Source: Caldilineales bacterium | GTDB lineage: Bacteria > Chloroflexota > Anaerolineae > J102 | Reading direction: 5' to 3' | NCBI GenBank assembly: GCA_013360575.1 | Contig: JABWBG010000008.1 | Coordinates: 1-35,013 of the forward strand | Length of the DNA: 35,013 bases | In this document: one piece after another, positions 18,700 to 32,587 of the stretch | Numbering within the stretch: position 1 is the first letter of the stretch | Layout: the number at the start of each line of letters is the position of its first letter | Made by a program: the position numbers and the translations under genes | Notes under the pieces: model-generated | Seen by the model: only the letters and a program-made list of their open reading frames with translations | The model's database searches: none | Told to the model about the DNA's origin: nothing

Positions 18700-19914
18700 A
18701 TGCGTATCCTCTTCCTCGCCACCTGGTTCCCCTACCCGCCCGACAACGGCTCCAAGCTGCGCGCCTACTACCTGCTGCGCGGCCTGGCGGAGCGCCACCA
18801 GGTGACGCTGCTCTCCTTCGCCTTCGCCACGGCCCGGCCCGACGCGCCGGGCGAGCTGCGCGACTGGTGCCGGGAGATTCAGGTCGCGCCGGTCGATCCT
18901 TTTGCCCTCAACCAGGCCGGCAGCCTGCGCACCTTTCTCTCGCCGCGGCCGGTGGCCTCTCGGCCCGTGCCGGCCATGAGCCAACTGGCCGCCCAGGCGC
19001 TGCGCGGCCAGCCCTACGACGCCGTGATCGCCTCCACCGGCATGATGATCGACTACGCCCTCCAGGCGCCGCCAGGGACGGTCAAGGTGCTGGAGGAGCA
19101 CAACGCCATGACCCGCTGGGCCTGGGAACGCTACCAGGAGGCCGCGGGCGTGGTGGAGCGGGCGCGGCGTTGGCTGAGCTGGCGCAAGGGCCGCCGGTAC
19201 GAGGCCCGTACCTACCCGCGCTTCGACCTCATCACCATGGTCTCCGAGGCTGACCGCCGGGCCGCCGTGGACGCGGCCGGCCGGCGCAGCCCGCGCGTCG
19301 AGGTGGTGCCCAACGGCGTGGACTGCGCCCATAACCGCCCCGGCCTGGCCCCGCCGCAGCCGACCAGCCTGGTCTTCAACGGCAGCCTGACCTACAGCGC
19401 CAACTACGACGCGATGCAGTGGTTCCTGGCCAAAGTCTACCCCAGCATCAAGGCGCAGGCCCCTGACGTCACGCTGGCCATCACCGGTTCGACCAAGGGC
19501 GTAGACCTGGCCGGGCTGGAACTGGACGATAGCGTGCGTCTCCTCGGCTACGTGGACGACGTGCGCATCCCGGTGGCCGGGGCTGCCGTGGCCGTGGCGC
19601 CCATCCGCCAGGGCGGCGGCACCCGCCTCAAGATCCTGGAGGCCATGGCCCTGGGCACGCCGGTGGTGGCCACGTCCAAGGGCGCAGAGGGGCTGGAAGC
19701 GGTGGATGGGCAGCACCTGCTGCTGGCCGATGACCCTCAGCGCTTCGCCGACGCCGTGCTGCGCCTGCTGGCCGACGACGTCCTTGCCGCCCGCCTGCGC
19801 CGCAACGCCCGCCAGTTGGTCGAGGAACGCTATGACTGGGACGCCATCGGCCGGCGCTTCGCGGCGCTGGTGGAACAAACAGTGACACGTAAGAGAGCGA
19901 ACAGCCATGAGTGA
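18700..19914 (+). CDS. GT4 family glycosyltransferase (family whose 3' end is repeated downstream)
   Basis: This 404-residue GT-B protein starts MRILFLATWFPYPPDNGSKL, has LEEHNAMTRWAWERY, VVPNGVD and the C-terminal GGGTRLKILEAMALGTPVV with conserved Lys and Glu. It resembles the incomplete gene at 34084 along its length. Its C-terminus ERYDWDAIGRRFAALVEQ is the sequence that recurs as short remnants at 20968, 21927, 22776 and 23841 in front of TA operons. It overlaps the methyltransferase start by 8 nt. Confidence 0.92.
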   Translation: MRILFLATWFPYPPDNGSKLRAYYLLRGLAERHQVTLLSFAFATARPDAPGELRDWCREIQVAPVDPFALNQAGSLRTFLSPRPVASRPVPAMSQLAAQALRGQPYDAVIASTGMMIDYALQAPPGTVKVLEEHNAMTRWAWERYQEAAGVVERARRWLSWRKGRRYEARTYPRFDLITMVSEADRRAAVDAAGRRSPRVEVVPNGVDCAHNRPGLAPPQPTSLVFNGSLTYSANYDAMQWFLAKVYPSIKAQAPDVTLAITGSTKGVDLAGLELDDSVRLLGYVDDVRIPVAGAAVAVAPIRQGGGTRLKILEAMALGTPVVATSKGAEGLEAVDGQHLLLADDPQRFADAVLRLLADDVLAARLRRNARQLVEERYDWDAIGRRFAALVEQTVTRKRANSHE

Positions 19915-20965
19915 ACCCTCCCAAACTGCGCGCCATTGGGACAGCGACCCCTGGAACACCGCAGACATCCTCTTTTGGACGCAACTGCCAGCCGTCCAGC
20001 GCCGCCAGGCGGTGAAGGAGAGCGGGCGCGTCGACGGCAATTGGGTCACTCATACGCTGCAAACCCACCTGGCCGGACATCTGCCGTTGGGGCGCTGCCT
20101 GAGTCTGGGCTGCGGGCGCGGTCGTGTCGAGCGGCAGTGGGCGGAGCAACAGGCTTTCCTGGCCTGCGACGCCTACGACATCTCGCCGGCGTCCATCGCC
20201 GATGCGGCCCAAGAAGCCAGCAGGGCCGGCTATGATCACATCCATTACGCCGTGGCCGATATCAACCAGATCGACCTGCCCCCGGCCTGGTATGACGCAG
20301 TGTGGGCCGCCGGGGCAGTGCATCACTTCGACCGGCTGGAGCACGTCTTCGCCCAGGTGGCGCAGGCGCTCAAGCCCGGCGGCCTCTTCATCCTCAACGA
20401 ATACGTCGGCCCCAGCCGCTTCCAGTTCCCGCCCGCCCAACGCCAGGCCATCCAGGCCTGCCTCGACCTGCTGCCGCCGGCCTATCGCCAACTCTCAGCA
20501 CAGGTGGCGCAGGCCAGGCTGTCAGGCGGGGGAAAACAACATCTTTTGCCGCCCGGTCTGCATCGACGCCTGCTGGACAAATGGCGCGATGGCGATCTGC
20601 TGGCGGCCGTGGGCCGGCGACTCCGTCTGTTGCGGGCAGCCCGCGCCGGCGTCGCCCTGGAGAAGAGCACGGCCAACCTGCCCACCGCCCGCTCGGTCAT
20701 CGCCGTGGACCCCTCCGAGGCAGTGCGCTCAGCCGAGATCGTGCCGCTGCTTCGGCAGCACTTCGACATCCTGGAATACAAGCCCCTGGGCGGGACCATC
20801 CTGCAGTTCCTGCTGGCCGACATCGCCGGCAACTTCCAGCAGGACGAGACCGGCGCCCGGCTGCTGGAAATGCTCTTCGCCATCGAGGACGCGCTGATCG
20901 ATGCCGGCCATATCGAGAGCGACTTCGCCTACATCGTGGCCGCGCCAAAAGCGTCTGCCGGGTAG
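19907..20965 (+). CDS. Class I SAM-dependent methyltransferase
   Basis: The 352-residue protein has methyltransferase motif I as CLSLGCGRGRVER (about residues 64-76), an acidic residue after the next strand (CDAYDISP), WYDAVWAAGAVHHF as motif IV and ALKPGGLFILNEYVG as the post-motif. It would methylate a small substrate, most likely a sugar of the glycan. With the Wzt C-terminal domain in the same locus it could make a chain-terminating cap, which is an inference. The C-terminal 150 residues are less typical. The stop is followed after 2 nt by the first GT-tail remnant. Confidence 0.88.
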   Translation: MSEPSQTARHWDSDPWNTADILFWTQLPAVQRRQAVKESGRVDGNWVTHTLQTHLAGHLPLGRCLSLGCGRGRVERQWAEQQAFLACDAYDISPASIADAAQEASRAGYDHIHYAVADINQIDLPPAWYDAVWAAGAVHHFDRLEHVFAQVAQALKPGGLFILNEYVGPSRFQFPPAQRQAIQACLDLLPPAYRQLSAQVAQARLSGGGKQHLLPPGLHRRLLDKWRDGDLLAAVGRRLRLLRAARAGVALEKSTANLPTARSVIAVDPSEAVRSAEIVPLLRQHFDILEYKPLGGTILQFLLADIAGNFQQDETGARLLEMLFAIEDALIDAGHIESDFAYIVAAPKASAG

Positions 20966-20967
20966 GC

Positions 20968-21059
20968 TGGGACGCCATCGCCCGGCGCTGCACGGCCCTG
21001 GTGGAGGAGAGGGCCCAGGCGCAACGTGCCTTGTCGCCTGGCGGCATTTGAGGTATACT
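20968..21059 (+). repeat. GT4-tail + promoter unit R1
   Basis: The unit reads WDAIARRCTALVEERAQ in an open frame up to a TGA at 21049, then a promoter. It matches the C-terminus of the GT4 at 18700 (WDAIGRRFAALVEQ). Its central block is shared base for base with R2 and nearly so with R3. No start codon or upstream GT sequence is attached, and it begins 2 nt after the methyltransferase stop. Confidence 0.85.
21031..21059 (+). promoter_or_regulatory. Promoter P1 for the RHH/PIN module
   Basis: TTGTCG, 17 nt, TATACT. The -10 fits sigma-70-type consensus well and the spacing is ideal. It lies 126 nt before the antitoxin start. A palindrome CGATCT-N5-AGATCG at 21071-21087 just downstream could be an operator for autoregulation. 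Confidence 0.65.
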
Positions 21060-21184
21060 TTGAGCGACACCGATCTGAACGAGATCGCTGTTTGAACGGC
21101 GTCTTGGTGAGATATCCACGATTTTGTCAGGAGCCTCCGTGGTTGCCCGATATCCCAGGCTAGCATGACCAGGAGCATTGCACC

Positions 21185-21412
21185 ATGAAGACGATTGTTA
21201 TAGATTTACCCGAGCGTATAACAACAGAGATCGGCGCACTGGTGGACAACGGCTGGTTTGCCAACGAAACCGAGATCATCCAGACAGCGTTGTGGGAATT
21301 CATGCGCCGCAACCGCTTTGCGTTGGCGGAGCAGTTCCAACGGGCCGACATTGCCTGGGCCTTGCAGCAGCATCGCAACCACCGGCAAAGCCAGGAAGCC
21401 AGCGCGCCGTGA
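21185..21412 (+). CDS. Ribbon-helix-helix antitoxin (CopG-like)
   Basis: The 75-residue protein begins KTIVIDLPERITTEIGALVD, a short beta-strand followed by helix, then WFANETEIIQTALWEFM, the second helix pair of a ribbon-helix-helix fold. The polar tail (LQQHRNHRQSQEAS) is likely the disordered toxin-binding part. Its TGA overlaps the start of the PIN gene (TGATG), the usual TA arrangement. It would neutralise the PIN protein and repress P1; this follows from family behaviour, not from a visible residue. Confidence 0.82.
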   Translation: MKTIVIDLPERITTEIGALVDNGWFANETEIIQTALWEFMRRNRFALAEQFQRADIAWALQQHRNHRQSQEASAP

Positions 21413-21903
21413 TGCGTGCTGTAACTGACACAGGGCCGCTCTTGCACCTGACTGAGGCCGCTGCCCTGGAGTTGCTTCGGCTGGTGGGCGATCTGCATGT
21501 GCCGCCTGAGGTGATGGCAGAAATGGCCTATCACCGGATGGATTGGTCGCTGCCTGACTGGATCACGCTCGACATCCTGGCGCCGGCCTTTGCGGCCGAT
21601 GCCGAAGCGTGGCAGCAAGCCGGTCTGCTGGACGCCGGGGAGGCGGAAGCTATCGCGTTGGCGCGTCAGATTGATGCCGAGTGGCTTTTGACCGATGATA
21701 CCGCAGCGCGGCTGTTTGCTCAGGAACTCGGCATCGAAGTGCATGGCTCCCTGGGCGTCGTGCTGTGGGCGGCCGCAGTCGGTCACTTGGAACGCCCAGT
21801 TGCCGAGCACGTCTTGACGCAACTGGCGCCTCCTCTTTGTGGATCTCGCGCCGGGTCCTGGCTGAAGCGCGTGCAGCCTTGGACGAAATCTTCGCTCCCC
21901 TGA
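21412..21903 (+). CDS. PIN-domain toxin-like nuclease (DUF3368)
   Basis: This 163-residue protein starts MRAVTDTGPLLHL with the first metal-binding Asp. The central acidic site LLDAGEAEAIALA and LLTDDTAARLFAQ follow, giving the PIN-fold acidic cluster. The sequence HGSLGVVLWAA is a DUF3368 hallmark. PIN toxins cleave RNA in a metal-dependent manner. The ATG at 21412 overlaps the antitoxin stop and directly precedes the family start. All acidic positions appear intact. The last ~20 residues look atypical. Confidence 0.85.
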   Translation: MRAVTDTGPLLHLTEAAALELLRLVGDLHVPPEVMAEMAYHRMDWSLPDWITLDILAPAFAADAEAWQQAGLLDAGEAEAIALARQIDAEWLLTDDTAARLFAQELGIEVHGSLGVVLWAAAVGHLERPVAEHVLTQLAPPLCGSRAGSWLKRVQPWTKSSLP

Positions 21904-21926
21904 GCTGAGCTGTAACACTTGCCACT

Positions 21927-22040
21927 TGGTCGAGCAGCGCTACGACCGTCACGCCATCGCCCGGCGCTGCACGGCCCTGGTGGAGGAGACAGCGCAAGCG
22001 TGAGGTCCCCTTTGTCGCTTGTTGGCAGTTGAGGTAAAAT
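21927..22040 (+). repeat. GT4-tail + promoter unit R2
   Basis: The open frame LVEQRYDRHAIARRCTALVEE ends in TGA soon after (AQA-stop). It is the longest remnant at its 5' side, matching LVEERYDWDAIGRRFAALVE of the 18700 gene. A promoter and the hicA start follow. In-frame stops upstream (21906) leave no start codon except TTG, so it is not an independent gene. Confidence 0.85.
22012..22040 (+). promoter_or_regulatory. Promoter P2 for hicAB
   Basis: TTGTCG, 17 nt, TAAAAT. The -10 ends 11 nt before the hicA ATG at 22052, leaving a very short leader with GGAG as ribosome binding site. Confidence 0.65.
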
Positions 22041-22051
22041 GGGAGCAACTT

Positions 22052-22306
22052 ATGAATCGCACTCATCGAAGAACGCTGGAAGCGATCTTTTCTACGCCAG
22101 TTCCTGCGAATTTGGAGTGGCGCAAGATCGAGGCGCTGCTGGTTGCGCTGGGTGCAGAGACTGTGTAAGGAGCCGGCTCGCGGGTGGCGTTCGTGCTCAA
22201 CGGCAAGCGGGCTGACTTCCACCGTCCGCATTCGGGCAAGGAAGCTAAACGCTATCAGGTGCGCGCCATGCGTGAATTCCTGGAGATGGCTGGGATCCAA
22301 CCATGA
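22052..22306 (+). pseudogene. hicA: HicA-type toxin inactivated by an in-frame nonsense codon
   Basis: The frame encodes 84 codons of a HicA-family mRNA interferase: MNRTHRRTLEAIFSTPVPAN, then EWRKIEALLVALGAETV, a TAA at 22166-22168, then GAGSRVAFVLNGKRADFHRP and an intact C-terminus ending AGIQP before the true TGA. Relatives carry Glu before GAGS, so one G-to-T change (GAA to TAA) explains the stop. The conserved FHRPH part, including the likely catalytic His, lies after it. The end overlaps hicB (ATGA). Without suppression only 38 residues are made, which should be inactive; the antitoxin gene is preserved. Confidence 0.85.
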
Positions 22307-22662
22307 CAAAACAACTGACTTACAAAGGTTATTCGGCGACGGTTGAGTTTGACTTAGAGGACCGCCTGTTTTTTGGTCGTGTGAACGGCATCAGCGACAT
22401 CGTCACATTTCATGGCGACAGTGCAGATGAGTTGATTCAGGCCTTCGAGCAAGCTGTGGATGGCTATCTGGCTATGTCCGAGCAACTGGGGCGTGCGCCG
22501 CAGTCGCCGCATGTGCGCCGCATTGTCGTGCGGGTACCGCCGGATGTTCACGCACGCGCCGCCGCGTTGGCGCAAATCGAAGGCAAGAGTCTGGACCTCT
22601 GGGCGCAGGAGGTCTTGGTGCAGGCAACCAGCCGTCCTCACCCAATGGTCGCTGCGCCTTGA
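22303..22662 (+). CDS. hicB: HicB-family antitoxin
   Basis: The 119-residue protein has the HicB N-terminal partial RNase H-like fold (TYKGYSATVEFDLEDRLFFG, ISDIVTFHGDSADELIQAF, AVDGYLAMSEQLG) and a C-terminal ribbon-helix-helix region (RIVVRVPPDVHARAAALA). This is the long HicB type that pairs with this HicA type. It is translationally coupled to the hicA remnant. With the toxin broken it may be an orphan regulator or could counter related HicA proteins such as the one at 28578. Confidence 0.88.
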   Translation: MTKQLTYKGYSATVEFDLEDRLFFGRVNGISDIVTFHGDSADELIQAFEQAVDGYLAMSEQLGRAPQSPHVRRIVVRVPPDVHARAAALAQIEGKSLDLWAQEVLVQATSRPHPMVAAP

Positions 22663-22775
22663 AAGCATCTGGCTGCTGCGGCAACGCACCAACCAGCCCT
22701 TCCCACGGGACAGCATCGGCGCCTCCTCAATCCGAAAATCCGTGATATTCGCGGGCAAGCCCCCGACAGGTCAGC

Positions 22776-22873
22776 CCCGACTGGCACGCCATCAGCCGGC
22801 GCTGCACGGCCCTGGTGGAGGAGAGGGCAGCTCATCGCCGGATGTTGGCGGCAGCCCAGGATTGAAGTACAAT
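22776..22873 (+). repeat. GT4-tail + promoter unit R3
   Basis: The open frame PDWHAISRRCTALVEERA continues to a TGA at 22862. The block from GCGCTGCACG to GGTGGAGGAG is identical to that in R1 and R2. A promoter lies across the end of the frame. The 113 nt between hicB and R3 hold nothing I recognise. Confidence 0.83.
22845..22873 (+). promoter_or_regulatory. Promoter P3 for the antitoxin/RelE tandem
   Basis: TTGGCG, 17 nt, TACAAT, 35 nt before the antitoxin start. A good ribosome binding site, GGAGG, lies at 22899-22903. It probably drives all four small genes up to 23777, since no other promoter is visible between them. Confidence 0.6.
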
Positions 22874-22908
22874 AGGCGCAGTGCTTTCAGTATTGATGGA
22901 GGTTCAAA

Positions 22909-23130
22909 ATGCATGTGTTTGATGTGTTGGACAAGACCCAGTTCGTGGTGGATGCCCGCGGTGCCAGGCAAGCCGTGCTGGTTGATTATCGTCTGTGGGA
23001 AGAGCTTCTCGCCCTGCTGGAGGATCGGGAGGATGCTGATGAAATCCGGCGCCTCCGGGAAGCCGGAGAAGAAGCCATCTCCTGGGACCAGGCCAAGGCG
23101 GAGCTGCGCGCTGAGGGGCTAGATGTATAG
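22909..23130 (+). CDS. Phd/YefM-like antitoxin
   Basis: The 73-residue protein runs FDVLDKTQFVVDARGARQAVLVDYRLWEELLALLED, then an acidic helix and ISWDQAKAELRAEGLDV. The tail is typical of antitoxins of RelE-type toxins. GGAGG precedes the ATG by 5 nt. Its TAG overlaps the start of the truncated RelE by 8 nt. It may be an orphan because its partner lacks the catalytic part, or it may bind the full RelE at 23475. Confidence 0.78.
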   Translation: MHVFDVLDKTQFVVDARGARQAVLVDYRLWEELLALLEDREDADEIRRLREAGEEAISWDQAKAELRAEGLDV

Positions 23131-23257
23131 TGTTCGCGTCCTGCGTCAGGCTGTCAAGGATATCGCCAGCTTACCCCGAGAATATGCCAGACTGATCACG
23201 GAGCACATCGACCGGCTCCGGGAAAACCCTCGTCCACCGGCAGAGGTGAATGTATGA
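23123..23257 (+). pseudogene. Truncated RelE/ParE-type toxin
   Basis: Only 44 residues remain: MYSVRVLRQAVKDIASLPRE, a helical middle, and RLRENPRPP. This is the N-terminal half of a RelE-fold toxin, which is normally about 85-100 residues. The RelE beta-sheet with the basic and catalytic residues (compare RLRLDKWRVVYAI in the gene at 23475) is missing. The frame changes after NPRPP into AEVNV-stop, and the TGA overlaps the next antitoxin ATG. The join looks like a deletion or recombination between two TA operons. Confidence 0.82.
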
Positions 23258-23478
23258 TCGCAACAGAAGCCTTACAGACCGTTCAATTTGTGACCGTCAA
23301 GGGGAGACGCTTTGCCGTGCTCGACGCCGAAGACTGGGAAGCGCTCGTCTCGTGGGTAGAGGATCTGGAGGATACCCAGATTGCGCGAACCGCGTTTGCC
23401 GAGTTGAACGCTGCCGGCGGAGATCGCCAGCGGGCCGGCTGGCTGGCGTGGGATGAGGTGGAAAAGGAGTTAGCGTGA
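23254..23478 (+). CDS. Phd/YefM-like antitoxin, second of tandem
   Basis: The 74-residue protein has TVQFVTVKGRRFAVLDAEDWEALVSWVEDLED, aligning with the antitoxin at 22909, and an acidic tail with WLAWDEVEKELA. It has no promoter or good ribosome binding site of its own. Translation appears to depend on coupling to the truncated RelE through the ATGA overlap. Its stop overlaps the GTG of the following toxin. Confidence 0.78.
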   Translation: MIATEALQTVQFVTVKGRRFAVLDAEDWEALVSWVEDLEDTQIARTAFAELNAAGGDRQRAGWLAWDEVEKELA

Positions 23479-23777
23479 CCCCTTACCAGGTCTTCATCAC
23501 GCCGCGTGCCCTGAAGGAGGCGAAAGAGCTGCCGGGCCATATGCGGCAGCGCATCCGGCGGGCAATCCCAGCCTTGGCGGATGATCCTCGCCCTGCTAAC
23601 AGCAAAGAACTGGACGTGCGGGGGCTGGCGCAAGAAGTACGCCGGCTCAGGCTGGACAAGTGGCGGGTGGTCTATGCCATTACCGAAGTGGATAACATCG
23701 TAGATATACTGGCCGTGCGCAAACGCCCACCCTATGACTATGGGGATCTGAACGCGCTGCTCGGCGACCTTTTGTGA
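23475..23777 (+). CDS. RelE-type mRNA interferase toxin
   Basis: This 100-residue protein is full length: YQVFITPRALKEAKELPGHMRQ, DDPRPANSKELDV, then RLRLDKWRVVYAI and DILAVRKRPPYDYGDL. Those strands and basic residues are the conserved RelE core. RelE toxins bind the ribosomal A site and cleave mRNA. The start is GTG at 23475, inside GTGA with the antitoxin stop and preceded by AAAAGGAG. It is the only intact toxin of the tandem. Confidence 0.87.
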   Translation: MTPYQVFITPRALKEAKELPGHMRQRIRRAIPALADDPRPANSKELDVRGLAQEVRRLRLDKWRVVYAITEVDNIVDILAVRKRPPYDYGDLNALLGDLL

Positions 23778-23840
23778 TCTCTAGAGCGCGACAGAGCCTC
23801 TTGGACAGTACAGGTCTGCCCCAGCGTCAGCTCGCCCCCG

Positions 23841-23950
23841 TTTGAGCAGCGCTACGCCTGGCACGCCACCGCCCGGCGCCTCGCGGCCCTGGTGGAGGAG
23901 AGGGTGGCAACGCGCCGTCCCTTGTCACGCAATGGGTCTTGAGGTAGAAT
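23841..23950 (+). repeat. GT4-tail + promoter unit R4
   Basis: The open frame FEQRYAWHATARRLAALVEE runs on to a TGA at 23940. It is the most diverged copy (RLAALVEE rather than RCTALVEE) and closer to ordinary GT4 C-termini than R1-R3. A promoter follows and then the MNT/HEPN operon. Confidence 0.83.
23922..23950 (+). promoter_or_regulatory. Promoter P4 for the MNT/HEPN module
   Basis: TTGTCA, 17 nt, TAGAAT. The -35 is the best match of the four to TTGACA. Transcription would start close to the small frame at 23961. Confidence 0.65.
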
Positions 23951-23960
23951 GACAACTGAG

Positions 23961-24032: not shown

Positions 24033-24374
24033 ATGATGACAAACTATCTTCCAGAGATCGTTGCTCAATTGCGGCCAATCGACCCGGCCAAGATTATCTT
24101 GTTTGGCAGCCAGGCCAGCGGCGCCGCAGACGAGGCTAGCGATTTTGACCTGCTCGTGGTTCTGAGCGACGACCGGTTACCGGCCACGCATCGTGAGAAG
24201 GAGGACGCATATCTCAAGGTTGCTCGCCTGCTCCGCGATATACGCCGCAGGATGCCTGTGGATCTGATCGTCCATACGCAGCCGATGCACCGCAAGTTTA
24301 TCGAAATGAACAGCCTTTTTGCCCGCAAGGTCTTGGAGGAAGGCATTGTGCTCTATGAAGCCGACAACACATGA
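24033..24374 (+). CDS. mntA: Minimal nucleotidyltransferase antitoxin (MntA-like)
   Basis: The 113-residue protein carries the polymerase-beta-type motif GS-X10-DXD exactly (FGSQASGAADEASDFD, about residues 27-42) and a third acidic position in MPVDLIVH. In the HepT-MntA TA family such proteins add AMP to the HEPN toxin and so neutralise it. All catalytic residues are present. Two adjacent ATG codons (24033, 24036) are possible. It overlaps the HEPN gene by 20 nt, which supports a two-gene operon. Confidence 0.88.
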   Translation: MMTNYLPEIVAQLRPIDPAKIILFGSQASGAADEASDFDLLVVLSDDRLPATHREKEDAYLKVARLLRDIRRRMPVDLIVHTQPMHRKFIEMNSLFARKVLEEGIVLYEADNT

Positions 24375-24747
24375 GTGGCTGACGAGGGCAGCAGAAGACT
24401 TGACGGCAGCACAATTGCTTCTTGCGCGGCCAGATCTCACCAATGTGGTTACCTTTCATGCCCAACAAGCAGTGGAGAAGGCGCTGAAAGCGGTGATCGA
24501 AGAGCTGGACCTTGGTTTTGTGAGAACGCATAGCCTGACGCGACTGTACGAACTGGTTCGCCCTCACTATCCGGTCATCGGCGATATGGACACGCTCGAT
24601 CGCCTGGATGCTGTCTATATCGAAGCGCGTTATCCAGGCGACATGGGATTGCTGTCCACTGGCAAGCCGACCTCAGACGAAGCCGCCGACCTGCTTGGCT
24701 TCGCTAACGACGTCTTTCAGCGACTTCATACCGGTCTTCAAGGCTAG
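24355..24747 (+). CDS. HEPN-domain protein, partner of MNT (HepT-like)
   Basis: The 130-residue, mostly helical protein has HEWLTRAAEDLTAAQLLL, TFHAQQAVEKALKAVI, RTHSLTRLYELV and VYIEARYPGD, the conserved blocks of the HEPN family that pairs with MNT proteins. I do not see the classical R-X4-6-H RNase motif, so ribonuclease activity is uncertain; the RTH and ARYP positions are the best-conserved polar sites. The ATG at 24355 is the family start. After its stop, 108 nt of C/A-rich sequence precede the next gene. Confidence 0.82.
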   Translation: MKPTTHEWLTRAAEDLTAAQLLLARPDLTNVVTFHAQQAVEKALKAVIEELDLGFVRTHSLTRLYELVRPHYPVIGDMDTLDRLDAVYIEARYPGDMGLLSTGKPTSDEAADLLGFANDVFQRLHTGLQG

Positions 24748-24855
24748 GGCGGCATGCGTGCGCCCTTGCCAAGGTGAGCGCCGAGGAGATCGAGAACCGA
24801 GGCTGGCCCCGGTGCTGGAAGCATTGACAGGACAACCAACCCACCAACCCACCCC

Positions 24856-26265
24856 ATGCTCACCACCCTCCTGCGTGACCGCTCCCGTCCATCCGAACTG
24901 CTAAGCGCCGCCGTCGTCCTGGCCGTGCTGGCCCTGGCCTTCCTGCTGGGCCAGCGCGCCTCGCCGTTGTGGCTGGGGCTGCTTCTGGCGGCAGTGGGCG
25001 GGCTGCTTTTGCTGGCCCGCCCGGCGTTGGGCCTCTTCGCCCTGGTATTGGCCGCCCTGCTCCTGCCGGTGGAGATCGGCACCGGCACCGAGGTCAGGCT
25101 CAACCCGGTCACCCTGCTGATCCCGGCCGTGGCCGCGCTCTGGCTGCTGGACCAGATGCGCCGCGGCCGCATTCGGGTCGTTGCCTCAGCCGCCAACCGG
25201 CCCCTGCTCCTCTTCCTGGCTGCCGGTCTGCTTTCCTTGCTGGTAGGCCGCGCCACCTGGGACTCCACCGTGCCGGTCAGCAACAGTTTCCTGCTGGTGC
25301 AGTTGGCGCAGTGGGCCATCTTCGCCTTCTCTGCCCTGGCCTTCTGGCTGACGGCCAACCTGATCCCAGACGAGAAGAGCCTCTGGCGGCTGACCGCCCT
25401 CTTCCTGCTGGTGGGGGGCGGGGTGGCCCTGGTGCGCCTGGTTCCCGGCCTGGGGGGATGGGTGGGCCAGTTCACCACCATCGCCTTCGTGCGCGCCTCC
25501 TTCTGGGTGCTGCTGGCCGGGCTGGCTGGCGGGCAACTGCTGTGGAACGACCGTCTCTCCACCGGCTGGCGTCTCTTCCTGGCCGGCGCGCTGCTGGCCA
25601 GCCTGGTCTACGCCTTTGTGCAGCAGCAGGAGGCCGCCTCCAACTGGGTGGGACTGGCCGCGGTGGGGGGGGTGTTGGTCTGGCTGCGCTTCCCCCGCCT
25701 GCGCGGCCCTATCGTGGCCCTGTTCCTGATCCTGGCAGCCATCGGCGTCATCTTCCCCACCGTCTACAATTTCGCCGGCGGCGACGAGGAATGGTTCGAG
25801 AGCGGCGGTTCCCGCCTGGCGCTTATCGGCCGGGTCATCGATGTGACCCTGCGCAATCCGGTCACCGGGCTGGGCCCGGCCGCCTACCGTCCCTATGCCA
25901 ACATGACCCCTCTGGTCTACGAGCATATCTTTTGGGTCGATCCCCGTATCAGCTCGCACAATAACTACGTGGATCTCTTTGCCCATGGCGGCCTTTTGGG
26001 GCTGCTTCTCTTCTTCTGGTTCGCGGCCGAAATCGCCCGGTTGGGCGCGCGGCTGCGCCAACGCTACCCGGCAGGCTTGGCCGCAGCCTATGTCAACGGC
26101 GTGTTGGCCGTGGGCGCCGGCAGCCTGGTGATCATGCTCCTGGCAGATTGGATCCTGCCCTTCGTCTACAACATCGGCTTCCCCGGCTTCCAGGCCAGTG
26201 TGCTGGTCTGGCTGTTCTTGGGAGGTTTTGTATCATTGGAGCGAGTCTTCCATGAAAACGTGTAA
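24856..26265 (+). CDS. O-antigen polymerase/ligase-like membrane protein (Wzy/WaaL family)
   Basis: The 469-residue protein has about ten to twelve predicted membrane helices and a large extracytoplasmic loop at about 300-370. That loop includes VTGLGPAAYRPYAN and SSHNNYVDLFAHGGLLGLL, the Wzy_C/WaaL signature with its conserved His. Such proteins polymerise lipid-linked repeat units or transfer the finished glycan to an acceptor. With an ABC exporter also present, a ligase role is as likely as a polymerase role. The ATG at 24856 follows a run of CCAACC-type repeats. Its last ~15 codons become AT-rich and overlap the next gene by 14 nt. Confidence 0.86.
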   Translation: MLTTLLRDRSRPSELLSAAVVLAVLALAFLLGQRASPLWLGLLLAAVGGLLLLARPALGLFALVLAALLLPVEIGTGTEVRLNPVTLLIPAVAALWLLDQMRRGRIRVVASAANRPLLLFLAAGLLSLLVGRATWDSTVPVSNSFLLVQLAQWAIFAFSALAFWLTANLIPDEKSLWRLTALFLLVGGGVALVRLVPGLGGWVGQFTTIAFVRASFWVLLAGLAGGQLLWNDRLSTGWRLFLAGALLASLVYAFVQQQEAASNWVGLAAVGGVLVWLRFPRLRGPIVALFLILAAIGVIFPTVYNFAGGDEEWFESGGSRLALIGRVIDVTLRNPVTGLGPAAYRPYANMTPLVYEHIFWVDPRISSHNNYVDLFAHGGLLGLLLFFWFAAEIARLGARLRQRYPAGLAAAYVNGVLAVGAGSLVIMLLADWILPFVYNIGFPGFQASVLVWLFLGGFVSLERVFHENV

Positions 26266-28577: not shown

Positions 28578-28802
28578 TTACAGCAGTTCGGAGAATTCCT
28601 CGACCGTGAGACCCGCGTCTCGGATGATCTTGCGCAACGTACCGCCGGGGATGGTTTTACCCCCATGCACTGAAACGATCGTCCAGCGACCGTCGGGATG
28701 GCGGTAGGTTGCATGGCTGCCAGACTGCCTGATAAGCTGAAAACCAAGCCGTTCCAGCACCTTCATCACCTGGCGGGCCGTCACAACCGGCAGCTTCGCC
28801 AT
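28578..28802 (-). CDS. hicA: HicA mRNA interferase toxin
   Basis: This 74-residue protein has the classical HicA double-stranded RNA-binding-like fold: TARQVMKVLERLGFQLIRQ, SGSHATYRHPDGR with the catalytic His, and VPVH-like VSVHGGKTIPGGTLRKIIRDAGL. It is complete and of standard length. The ATG at 28802 lies 2 nt after the hicB stop. It is of a different HicA type from the broken gene at 22052. HicA degrades mRNA and is held by HicB. Confidence 0.92.
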   Translation of the reverse strand: MAKLPVVTARQVMKVLERLGFQLIRQSGSHATYRHPDGRWTIVSVHGGKTIPGGTLRKIIRDAGLTVEEFSELL

Positions 28803-28804
28803 GA

Positions 28805-29020
28805 TCAAACAGCCACCGTCACGAAGTCCTGTGTTGGCACAGGATCGCCAACAGCCAGCCGCGACTCGATCACCAGTTGTATGGCGTCGCGGATGGCATC
28901 CAGCGCTTCGGCGTAGGTCCGCCCATCGGTGTAGCAGCCTGGCAGCAAAGGACAATCAGCCAGGTAAACACGCTCTCCTGGGTCGTACTCGATCACAACG
29001 GGAAATCTATACTCTCGCAT
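28805..29020 (-). CDS. hicB: HicB antitoxin
   Basis: The 71-residue protein MREYRFPVVIEYDPGERVYLADCPLLPGCYTDGRTYAEALDAI has the typical HicB partial RNase H fold, ending in a short tail (DFVTVAV) without an obvious DNA-binding domain. ATG 29020 is chosen as the family start; an in-frame ATG 30 nt upstream is the alternative. The order hicB-hicA places the antitoxin first, and a promoter lies about 90 nt upstream on the same strand. Confidence 0.9.
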   Translation of the reverse strand: MREYRFPVVIEYDPGERVYLADCPLLPGCYTDGRTYAEALDAIRDAIQLVIESRLAVGDPVPTQDFVTVAV

Positions 29021-29107
29021 TGTCTCGTCCTTGGTGGCTGTGCAAGCCATCTCCTACATAGTCGCAGCCGGAGTGGCGCGATGCCAAAACTGTCAGTGGA
29101 TTGTCTT

Positions 29108-31176: not shown

Positions 31177-32403
31177 TTGCGCCTCCTCTACCTCTGCCTT
31201 TCCCCCACCTTTGGCATGCACCAATACACCGCGGGCCTGGCCAACCAGATGGTTGCCGCCGGCCACGACGTGCATGTCATCGGCCCGGCTGGCCTCCCCC
31301 GCGACCGCTACCACCCTGCCGTCCACATCCACACCCCCCTGACCAACCGCACCACTGGCTTCTCCCGCGAAGGCCTCGACCTCCCCGCCCTCCGCCGCGT
31401 CCTCGCCTGCCTCCATACCCTCTCCCTCCCCCACCCCCTCCCCCACCCCCCCCCCCACCCACCCAACAAACCAACCAACCAACCACCCACCCACCCACCC
31501 AACCAACCAACAAACAAACCACCCAACCAACAAACCAACAAACCAACAAACCAACAAACCACCCTCCACCTCACCGCCCCCCACCTCTGGAACCCGATTT
31601 TTATCCGGCGCTGTCATAAACGCGGCCTTTCCGCTATACATACAATACACGACCTCGATCCCCATCCCGGCGTTCCCTTTGGCCGGCTCATCCCCCTGTG
31701 GAACCGCCTGATCCTGCGCCAGGCCGATCACATCCTTGTCCATGGCCGCTGCTACCGCCGCCGTCTTGTCGCCCAGGGCCTTTCCCCTCGCCGCGTCACC
31801 GCCCTCCCTCTCCTCCACCTCTGCTTCAGCCACGCCGCCCAGGCCGGGCTTGACTCCCTGCCGCCCCCCTCGCCCGCCGCCCCCCCCTCTCTCCTCTTCT
31901 TCGGTCGCCTGCTGCCCTACAAAGGCATCCCCGACCTGCTACAGGCCTGGCAGCAGGCCGCGCTGGGCAACGCCCGCCTCATCCTGGCCGGCCCTGGCGA
32001 CCTCGCCGCCCTCTGGCCGCATGATCTGCCCCCTGGCGTCGAACTGCGCAACCATCTCATCCCCGACGCCGAGGCCATCGCCCTTTTCCAGACCTGTTCC
32101 CTGCTCGTGTTGCCCTATGTGCAGGCCACCCAATCCGCGCTCATCCCCGCGGCCTACTACTTTGGCAAGCCGGTGCTGGCCGCGGACACCGGCGCCCTGT
32201 CCGAATACATCCTGCCTAACCGCACCGGCTGGCTTTTCCCTCCCGGCGATGTCCCCGCCCTCGCTGCGGCCCTCGCCACCCTCCTGACCGATCCTGCCCT
32301 CCTGCGCGGGATGGGCTTTGCAACCCGCGCCTGGTACGAAGCCCAGGCCGCGCACGAACAAACCGCCCTCCCCGCCCTCTACACCCAGCCCCCCGCCCCC
32401 TAA
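31177..32403 (+). CDS. GT4 glycosyltransferase interrupted in frame by a tetranucleotide repeat tract
   Basis: This 408-residue GT-B protein starts MRLLYLCLSPTFGMHQYTAG at a TTG codon, has HTIHDLDPHPG, LVHGRCYRRRLV, LLFFGRLLPYKGIPDLL and LVLPYVQATQSALIPAAYYF, where the usual EX7E is replaced by a TQSALIPAAYYF-type motif as in some GT4 relatives. At about residues 85-130 the protein is only His/Pro/Asn/Thr/Gln, encoded by CCAA/CCCA/CAAA repeats. These replace the loop before the strand LHLTAPHLWNP. The tract unit is 4 nt, so a unit change would shift the frame. Another CCAACC tract follows the stop. Confidence 0.87.
   Translation: MRLLYLCLSPTFGMHQYTAGLANQMVAAGHDVHVIGPAGLPRDRYHPAVHIHTPLTNRTTGFSREGLDLPALRRVLACLHTLSLPHPLPHPPPHPPNKPTNQPPTHPPNQPTNKPPNQQTNKPTNQQTTLHLTAPHLWNPIFIRRCHKRGLSAIHTIHDLDPHPGVPFGRLIPLWNRLILRQADHILVHGRCYRRRLVAQGLSPRRVTALPLLHLCFSHAAQAGLDSLPPPSPAAPPSLLFFGRLLPYKGIPDLLQAWQQAALGNARLILAGPGDLAALWPHDLPPGVELRNHLIPDAEAIALFQTCSLLVLPYVQATQSALIPAAYYFGKPVLAADTGALSEYILPNRTGWLFPPGDVPALAAALATLLTDPALLRGMGFATRAWYEAQAAHEQTALPALYTQPPAP
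31426..31560 (+). repeat. Intragenic C-run and CCAA/CCCA/CAAA tetranucleotide tract
   Basis: A C-rich part (to about 31465) is followed by CCAA, CACC and CAAA units. It ends with four perfect CCAACAAA octamers at 31527-31558. The complementary strand is made of closely spaced GGG/GGGG runs (from 31430 to 31500) and could form G-quadruplexes. The tract is in the coding sequence of a GT4. Confidence 0.92.
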
Positions 32404-32409
32404 AACCGC

Positions 32410-32482
32410 CCCCGCCCCACCCCCCACCCACCCACCCAACCAACAAACCACCCAACCAACAAACCAACCAACCAACAAACCC
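32410..32482 (+). repeat. CCAACC/CAAACC tract downstream of the GT4 gene
   Basis: This is the same repeat type as at 31426-31560, now between genes. It begins 7 nt after the GT4 stop. The remaining spacer to 32587 contains CACTCGCCTGCA/CACTCACCTGCA near-repeats at about 32505-32528 and no gene. Confidence 0.88.
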
Positions 32483-32587
32483 AATACCGTGTGGCCTTGC
32501 TGGTGCACTCGCCTGCACTCACCTGCATCCGCCAGCAAGCGCCTTCTCGCCCCGGTGTGCTCGGATCTCCTCGATTCAGGTGAAGCC

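Follow-up and report, generated by a model that had tools for sequence, protein, structure and literature searches.

Repeated glycosyltransferase gene ends in front of stacked toxin-antitoxin modules in a Caldilineales bacterium

Insertion with long target duplication (ILTD) is said to have been described by Nobusato and colleagues in 2000 in Helicobacter pylori. According to papers citing this work, ILTD of restriction-modification genes in this species involves target duplications that are long, vary in length, and measure around 100 bp (reviewed in PMC3874152, shown in PMC1643837; see also PMC3031569). Here, we analyzed a 35,013-nucleotide (nt) stretch of DNA from a Caldilineales bacterium (assembly GCA_013360575.1, contig JABWBG010000008.1, positions 1 to 35,013; hereafter the window), in which four toxin-antitoxin (TA) modules each stand behind a repeat unit composed of the 3' end of a GT4 glycosyltransferase (GT) gene and a predicted promoter. 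We regard repeated insertion with long target duplication at the 3' end of the GT4 gene, followed by recombination between the units, as the best explanation of this array and assign it a probability of about 0.6.

The locus resembles ILTD in that small addiction modules without a transposase occur together with long and variable direct repeats, putative duplicates of the target. ILTD is known from the comparison of filled and empty sites, and in the present analysis single-copy sites were found at a dehydrogenase gene. In contrast to ILTD, the cargo consists of TA modules of types II and VII and comparable small gene sets, with one HNH module in the related genome G142, and not of restriction-modification genes; furthermore, the duplicate is mostly the end of a neighbouring gene, the modules are stacked at one target, and the duplicate includes a promoter common to unrelated operons. 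A literature search, confined mainly to freely available papers, revealed no description of ILTD for TA modules or of such stacking.

Three other systems are comparable. Chromosomal integron arrays also contain tandem, co-oriented TA cassettes and repeats of about 100 nt and are reordered between relatives, whereas here the repeats are gene 3' ends plus promoter, every module is preceded by a promoter copy of its own, and no integrase was found. Genomic islands and cis-mobilizable elements accrete at gene 3' ends; they likewise keep the gene end and leave direct repeats between stacked elements, but the elements described here are about 1 kb in size and without recombinase, the target differs per locus, and the repeats are long and imperfect. 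Orphan toxin/immunity cassettes are carried by contact-dependent inhibition (CDI) and Rhs loci, with short repeated gene-end homology ahead of variable toxin/immunity pairs; here, however, the repeated end has its own stop codon, derives from an unrelated enzyme, and is not fused to the toxin.

Repeat units and their promoter

The limits of the units were determined by alignment, repeat search, and BLAST of the window. All four units lie on the forward strand, are 109-148 nt long, and consist of the GT4 gene 3' end and a sigma70-like promoter, the two boxes of which are 17 nt apart. U1 (20964-21072; -35 box TTGTCG at 21031-21036, -10 box TATACT at 21054-21059) abuts the stop codon of a methyltransferase gene and U2 (21905-22052; -35 at 22012-22017, -10 at 22035-22040) begins 2 nt past the stop codon of a PIN-like gene; at both, the tail starts at most 2 nt from the preceding stop codon. 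U3 spans 22771-22885 (-35 at 22845-22850, -10 at 22868-22873) and U4 spans 23816-23958 (-35 at 23922-23927, -10 at 23945-23950). Mutual identity of the units was 75-94% across 47-110 nt (self-BLAST E values of about 1e-9 to 1e-20), and identity to the end of the live GT4 gene (19795-19884) was 77-90%. The preliminary description of this DNA, which had reported four such units before four different TA modules, was confirmed.

The pattern TTGNCR-N11-TTGARGTANANT has four matches in the 3.9-Mb genome, one in each of U1-U4, and the reversed-pattern control has none (0 matches). Therefore, the promoter belongs to the repeat and is not a general promoter of the organism; the predicted unit promoters may be expected to function in cells. 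The GT frame, originally described as open to a stop codon, ends in U1, U3, and U4 at a common TGA within the spacer between the -35 and -10 boxes, right before the -10 box; U2 departs from this picture by a 2-nt insertion that leads to an earlier stop. Since the GT tail is located upstream of the promoter, it is not part of the TA transcript. The likeness of the tails among the units requires descent or recombination, not function.

The live GT4 gene (18700-19914, forward strand; Pfam Glyco_trans_1_4, E 7.4e-28) is taken as the gene whose 3' end was the target and is repeated, and its product shows 74% amino acid identity to that of an intact GT gene in G142. The live gene no longer carries the end with the promoter, and its stop codon is overlapped by a methyltransferase gene (19907-20965, forward strand; Pfam Methyltransf_11), a 3' remnant of which is kept in G142 ahead of a GT tail. 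Hence, although the upstream gene bears the C-terminus of the tails as had been stated, it lacks the promoter end and is not the direct source of the units; an intact GT gene with the promoter end exists in G142.

According to the ILTD explanation, separate insertions of small addiction modules would have occurred at a single target, the GT4 gene 3' end, and each insertion would have doubled the adjacent 50-150 nt of the target. The upstream gene would have retained its whole end, and the displaced end would have been left as a tail before the older module. A first module with its promoter would have come to lie behind the GT gene, and later insertions just past this promoter would have copied tail and promoter jointly. 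The unit copies would then have provided homology for recombination, by which modules were reshuffled and tails homogenised. The underlying chemistry may involve either a staggered break that is filled in or homology on one side together with a second joint made illegitimately, and the order of insertions is a putative one. Joint duplication of tail and promoter would explain why unrelated TA operons share both; the model also accounts for the repeated piece being a local gene end and for the upstream gene being left whole. Insertion of mRNA-derived copies, spanning a module from transcription start to stop, was considered since the distance between module end and repeat is as short as 0-5 nt in several cases, and it was dropped since the youngest insertions have gaps of 41-105 nt.

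Flanking duplications at other loci and in relatives

Flanking repeats were surveyed in a 783-kb sample of the source genome (G000), with paralogous domains set aside; 400 kb of G029 served as a rough control, in which flanking repeats resembled dispersed repeats. Flanking duplications of 49-102 nt were found at other loci of this genome (49-108 nt with relatives included), with differing targets, lengths, and sequences, so that comparable modules are bracketed by other host sequences, namely an arginase gene, an SGNH-hydrolase/methyltransferase junction, kbl, and an AlbA-like gene. At locus L075 (G000:C211, 3550-5142), three copies of an arginase-like 3' end alternate with HicAB and a DUF2442 gene, the modules being on the strand opposite to the arginase-like gene. 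A MazEF module is located between 49-nt repeats (L085) and a HicBA module between 78-nt repeats (L097). A lone DUF3800 gene lies between 102-nt repeats with 99% identity (L090; G000:C9, 15884-16888), which represent the start of a kbl-like gene adjoined by a threonine-dehydrogenase-like gene. Downstream of an ileS-like gene, perfect 99-nt direct repeats enclose a two-gene module (L142; G000:C320, 11386-12488) encoding a 135-aa protein without family and a 156-aa Peptidase_C39-like protein. The repeat includes a promoter-like TTGCCA-N18-TATGAT; judged by the perfect repeats, the insertion is apparently very recent, and the pair is a candidate for an uncharacterised TA-like pair. One further pair (L131) was set aside as a dispersed repeat.

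The same arrangement was observed in other genomes. In G123, HicAB is located between 51-nt repeats with 94% identity (L057). In G340 and G378 of genus g92, HicAB is located behind a dehydrogenase-subunit gene, the 102-108-nt 3' end of which is doubled; four congeners (G352, G132, G396, G397) contain this end in single copy. This gene end has been hit by different modules, HicAB in two congeners and an MNT/HEPN-like pair in G397. Because comparable modules are bracketed by other local flanks, the GT tail is to be seen as a duplicated target and not as a travelling tag. The earlier proposal that TA operons move between sites behind the end of a GT gene is not supported, in view of these other host flanks and of the occurrence of HicB relatives in 44 of 396 genomes of the class versus full-length units in 2 of 396.

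A sequence model of the unit, applied to these 396 genomes, identified full-length units outside the source genome only in G142, Caldilineales bacterium DTUCFX11, which belongs to a different family of the Genome Taxonomy Database (GTDB). G142 was also the sole match of a relaxed unit pattern across 84,980 GTDB species genomes, and the strict pattern matched none of them. Weaker model matches (E about 1e-3 to 1e-5) obtained elsewhere in the class were taken as mostly ordinary glycosyltransferase gene ends. The unit gave no meaningful match to PLSDB plasmids and no match to viral contigs, and an Rfam search of the array returned one chance match to a long non-coding RNA (lncRNA). Outside the window, all full-length units precede TA-type or HNH modules.

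On G142 contig C490 (L029), an intact GT gene carries the promoter within its final codons. It is followed by an HNH-endonuclease module, the methyltransferase remnant, a promoterless GT tail, HigBA, a promoter-bearing GT tail, and BrnTA; the names HNH, HigBA, BrnTA, and AbrB used for G142 are sequence readings without a family search. Contig C642 (L030) starts with a partial unit, antitoxin 2 with a ParE remnant, a full unit, and HicAB, and continues with an AbrB-like gene preceded by a promoter copy, more genes of TA-like type, a GT tail lacking the promoter, and the RHH gene. The order of modules is therefore RHH/PIN, HicAB, ParE in the window versus ParE, HicAB, RHH in G142, with a single orientation throughout. 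The G142 ParE end with its unit aligns to window ParE-U4, and the G142 unit with HicAB aligns to window U2-HicAB. As far as these alignments indicate, the breakpoints between window and G142 lie inside or beside the unit, which bears out its description as a module boundary.

The G142 unit in front of HicAB is a mosaic: at sites that distinguish the GT of G142 itself from U2, agreement with this GT versus U2 is 8:0 within the tail, and the ratio is 2:7 within the promoter (Fisher p 0.002). In the window, the unit preceding the RHH gene bears a promoter; in G142, this gene follows a promoterless GT tail, and similarity restarts at about 21136. Identity at four-fold sites between window and G142 was 68% for the GT gene and 86% for the RHH gene (28 sites only), values compatible with separate histories of the two genes.

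Additionally, genome G100 contains a GT homologue that is directly overlapped by an O-antigen-ligase-type gene, with no methyltransferase or TA genes in between. This adjacency probably represents the empty arrangement; it is the sole empty-site comparison for the window array, and G100 belongs to a different family.

Evaluation of alternative explanations

Several observations weigh against ILTD at the window array. The tails are only 75-94% alike, and the insertions would therefore be old. For the single modules of the window, target duplication is assumed by analogy with the other loci. The G142 contigs are pieces of 3-4 kb from a metagenome-assembled genome and possibly mis-binned. At L160 (G000:C226, 400-1442), a DinB-like 3' end is repeated around the gene of a 171-aa membrane protein; this cargo is not a TA module, and the scar is thus not limited to TA modules. 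Furthermore, the MNT/HEPN-like pair behind the dehydrogenase gene of G397 (L191; C81, 1808-2463), as read from its translation, has no second tail, and several TA loci of the source genome have no flanking repeats.

Among the alternatives, recombination at the tails themselves survives best, although we consider it unlikely. Circular or transformed pieces consisting of GT tail, promoter, and TA genes would be taken in and released by RecA at the tails, resembling an integron with about 100 bp of homology in place of att sites. This would account for the reordered modules and the mosaic unit between G000 and G142, for the co-orientation of all modules, and for the G142 tails being 87-95% like the GT gene of G142 itself. 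However, the origin of the first tail copies is left unexplained, as are the other modules bracketed by copies of other local sequences; moreover, RecA works poorly on 50-100 nt of homology at 80-90% identity.

Site-specific recombination in trans is improbable. The tails would correspond to attL/attR-like sites, and non-autonomous modules would be moved by a remote integrase, comparable to the accretion of cis-mobilizable elements. Attachment sites are indeed classically located at gene 3' ends, accretion typically yields arrays with direct repeats between the elements, and tyrosine recombinase matches were obtained in the source genome and G142; yet these integrase matches were below the cut-off, and the profile also matched all 14 controls. 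Targets and repeats vary per locus (49-108 nt), which would require many integrases, no common core was seen, the modules comprise just 0.5-1 kb, and no recombinase was found among the module genes examined.

Decay of a former tandem array of GT genes that was invaded by TA modules, with the GT bodies reduced to their 3' ends, is very improbable. Glycosyltransferase genes are abundant in this region of the window, but four independent decays would need a nearly identical stopping place. That such decays are unlikely had already been argued in the preliminary description, and this argument is strengthened by the scar at other genes and by G100, where one GT gene is followed by the ligase gene without an array. 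No intermediates with longer GT remnants were seen between modules; the longest remnant, of about 150 nt, precedes BrnT in G142.

The stacking had also been called integron-like without a visible integrase. Integrase-free stacking of modules is supported, as no transposase, integrase, or recombinase was detected among the module genes examined (Pfam, NCBIfam, PADLOC), whereas the mechanism does not agree with an integron. The RYYYAAC...GTTRRRY pair of attC sites is absent from all units, and the repeats of the HicAB array L077 also fail this strict test. Single-strand folding of the units was no better than that of shuffled sequences (z -1.0 to +1.9), except for one strand of U3 (-2.6). The integron integrase model TIGR02249 gave no match over the curated cut-off in G000 or G142, both fragmented genomes, so that this absence is not final. 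HicAB arrays with attC-like repeats, which provide a rough contrast only, were observed at L077 (G377:C127), L049 (G007:C27), and L064; the arrays at L077 and L049 suggest chromosomal integrons in this class. Despite its cassette-like layout, TA cargo, single orientation, repeats of about 100 nt, and these arrays in other class genomes, a true integron with diverged attC sites is the least credible explanation; the unit is a coding gene end.

Genes of the array and significance of the scar

The window modules consist of adjacent antitoxin and toxin genes of known type II/VII TA families, and all features listed here up to the ligase gene are on the forward strand. HicB, ParE, NTP_transf_2 (MNT), and HEPN passed the Pfam cut-offs; matches were weak for the RHH, PIN-like, and both YefM-like proteins. 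Behind U1, an RHH-type antitoxin gene (21185-21412; RHH_8 below cut-off), the product of which is 91% identical to that of the G142 gene behind the promoterless GT tail, precedes a PIN-like toxin gene (21412-21903; weak DUF3368, PADLOC PDC-S70, relatives at 52-53%). The HicAB module behind U2 comprises hicB (22303-22662; Pfam HicB, E 2.3e-8; 90% amino acid identity to G142) and hicA (22052-22306), which carries an in-frame TAA at 22166-22168; the hicA frame is open in G142. Behind U3, the supposed antitoxin/RelE tandem was resolved into a Phd/YefM/RelB-like antitoxin 1 gene (22909-23130; Pfam below cut-off), a truncated RelE-like gene of 44 aa (23123-23257; a sequence reading), an antitoxin 2 gene (23254-23478; ortholog on G142 C642 with 81% amino acid identity), and a ParE/RelE toxin gene (23475-23777; ParE_toxin, E 3.4e-9). 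With its interrupted hicA and one truncated RelE, the array is probably no longer functional in parts.

U4 is followed by the gene of an MNT nucleotidyltransferase, an MntA-like antitoxin assigned by family search (24033-24374), and a HEPN toxin gene (24355-24747; Pfam HEPN, E 6.4e-23). After the HEPN gene lies a remnant of an AbrB-like module (24746-24823; BLAST identity 82% over 63 nt and 95% over 22 nt), which is intact in G142 behind a promoter unit. Past the array, an O-antigen ligase gene (Wzy_C, 24856-26265) is located; a similar gene is the one that overlaps the GT end directly in G100. The polysaccharide cluster that includes the array contains a second HicA/HicB pair (28578-29050, minus strand), which is not bracketed by repeats. 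Two long one-strand stretches of CCAACCAACAAAC-type simple repeats occur at 31388-31587 and 32357-32508, and GTTGGTTGG runs are present in a further contig (L145).

The recurrent scar in the source genome and its relatives, a duplicated gene end followed by a module and again the gene end, points to a transposase-free entry of modules, and any collection of genomes can be screened for this scar. The occurrence of filled and empty sites within one genus makes the mechanism testable, and the stack accounts for a promoter common to unrelated TA operons. Flanking duplications could furthermore reveal uncharacterised module types, for example the C39-peptidase pair or the DUF3800 gene. The spread of chromosomal TA modules without a mobile element is a long-standing question. 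As a tentative generalization, which at present appears rather doubtful, TA modules as a class may be self-sufficient passengers that need no transposase and gain access to genomes through long target duplication at the ends of genes; these ends would become hotspots of stacking, and the modules would take over the promoter of the duplicated target and later be shuffled through recombination of the duplicates. If true, this mode of entry would provide a general answer to the spread of TA modules without a visible mobile element.

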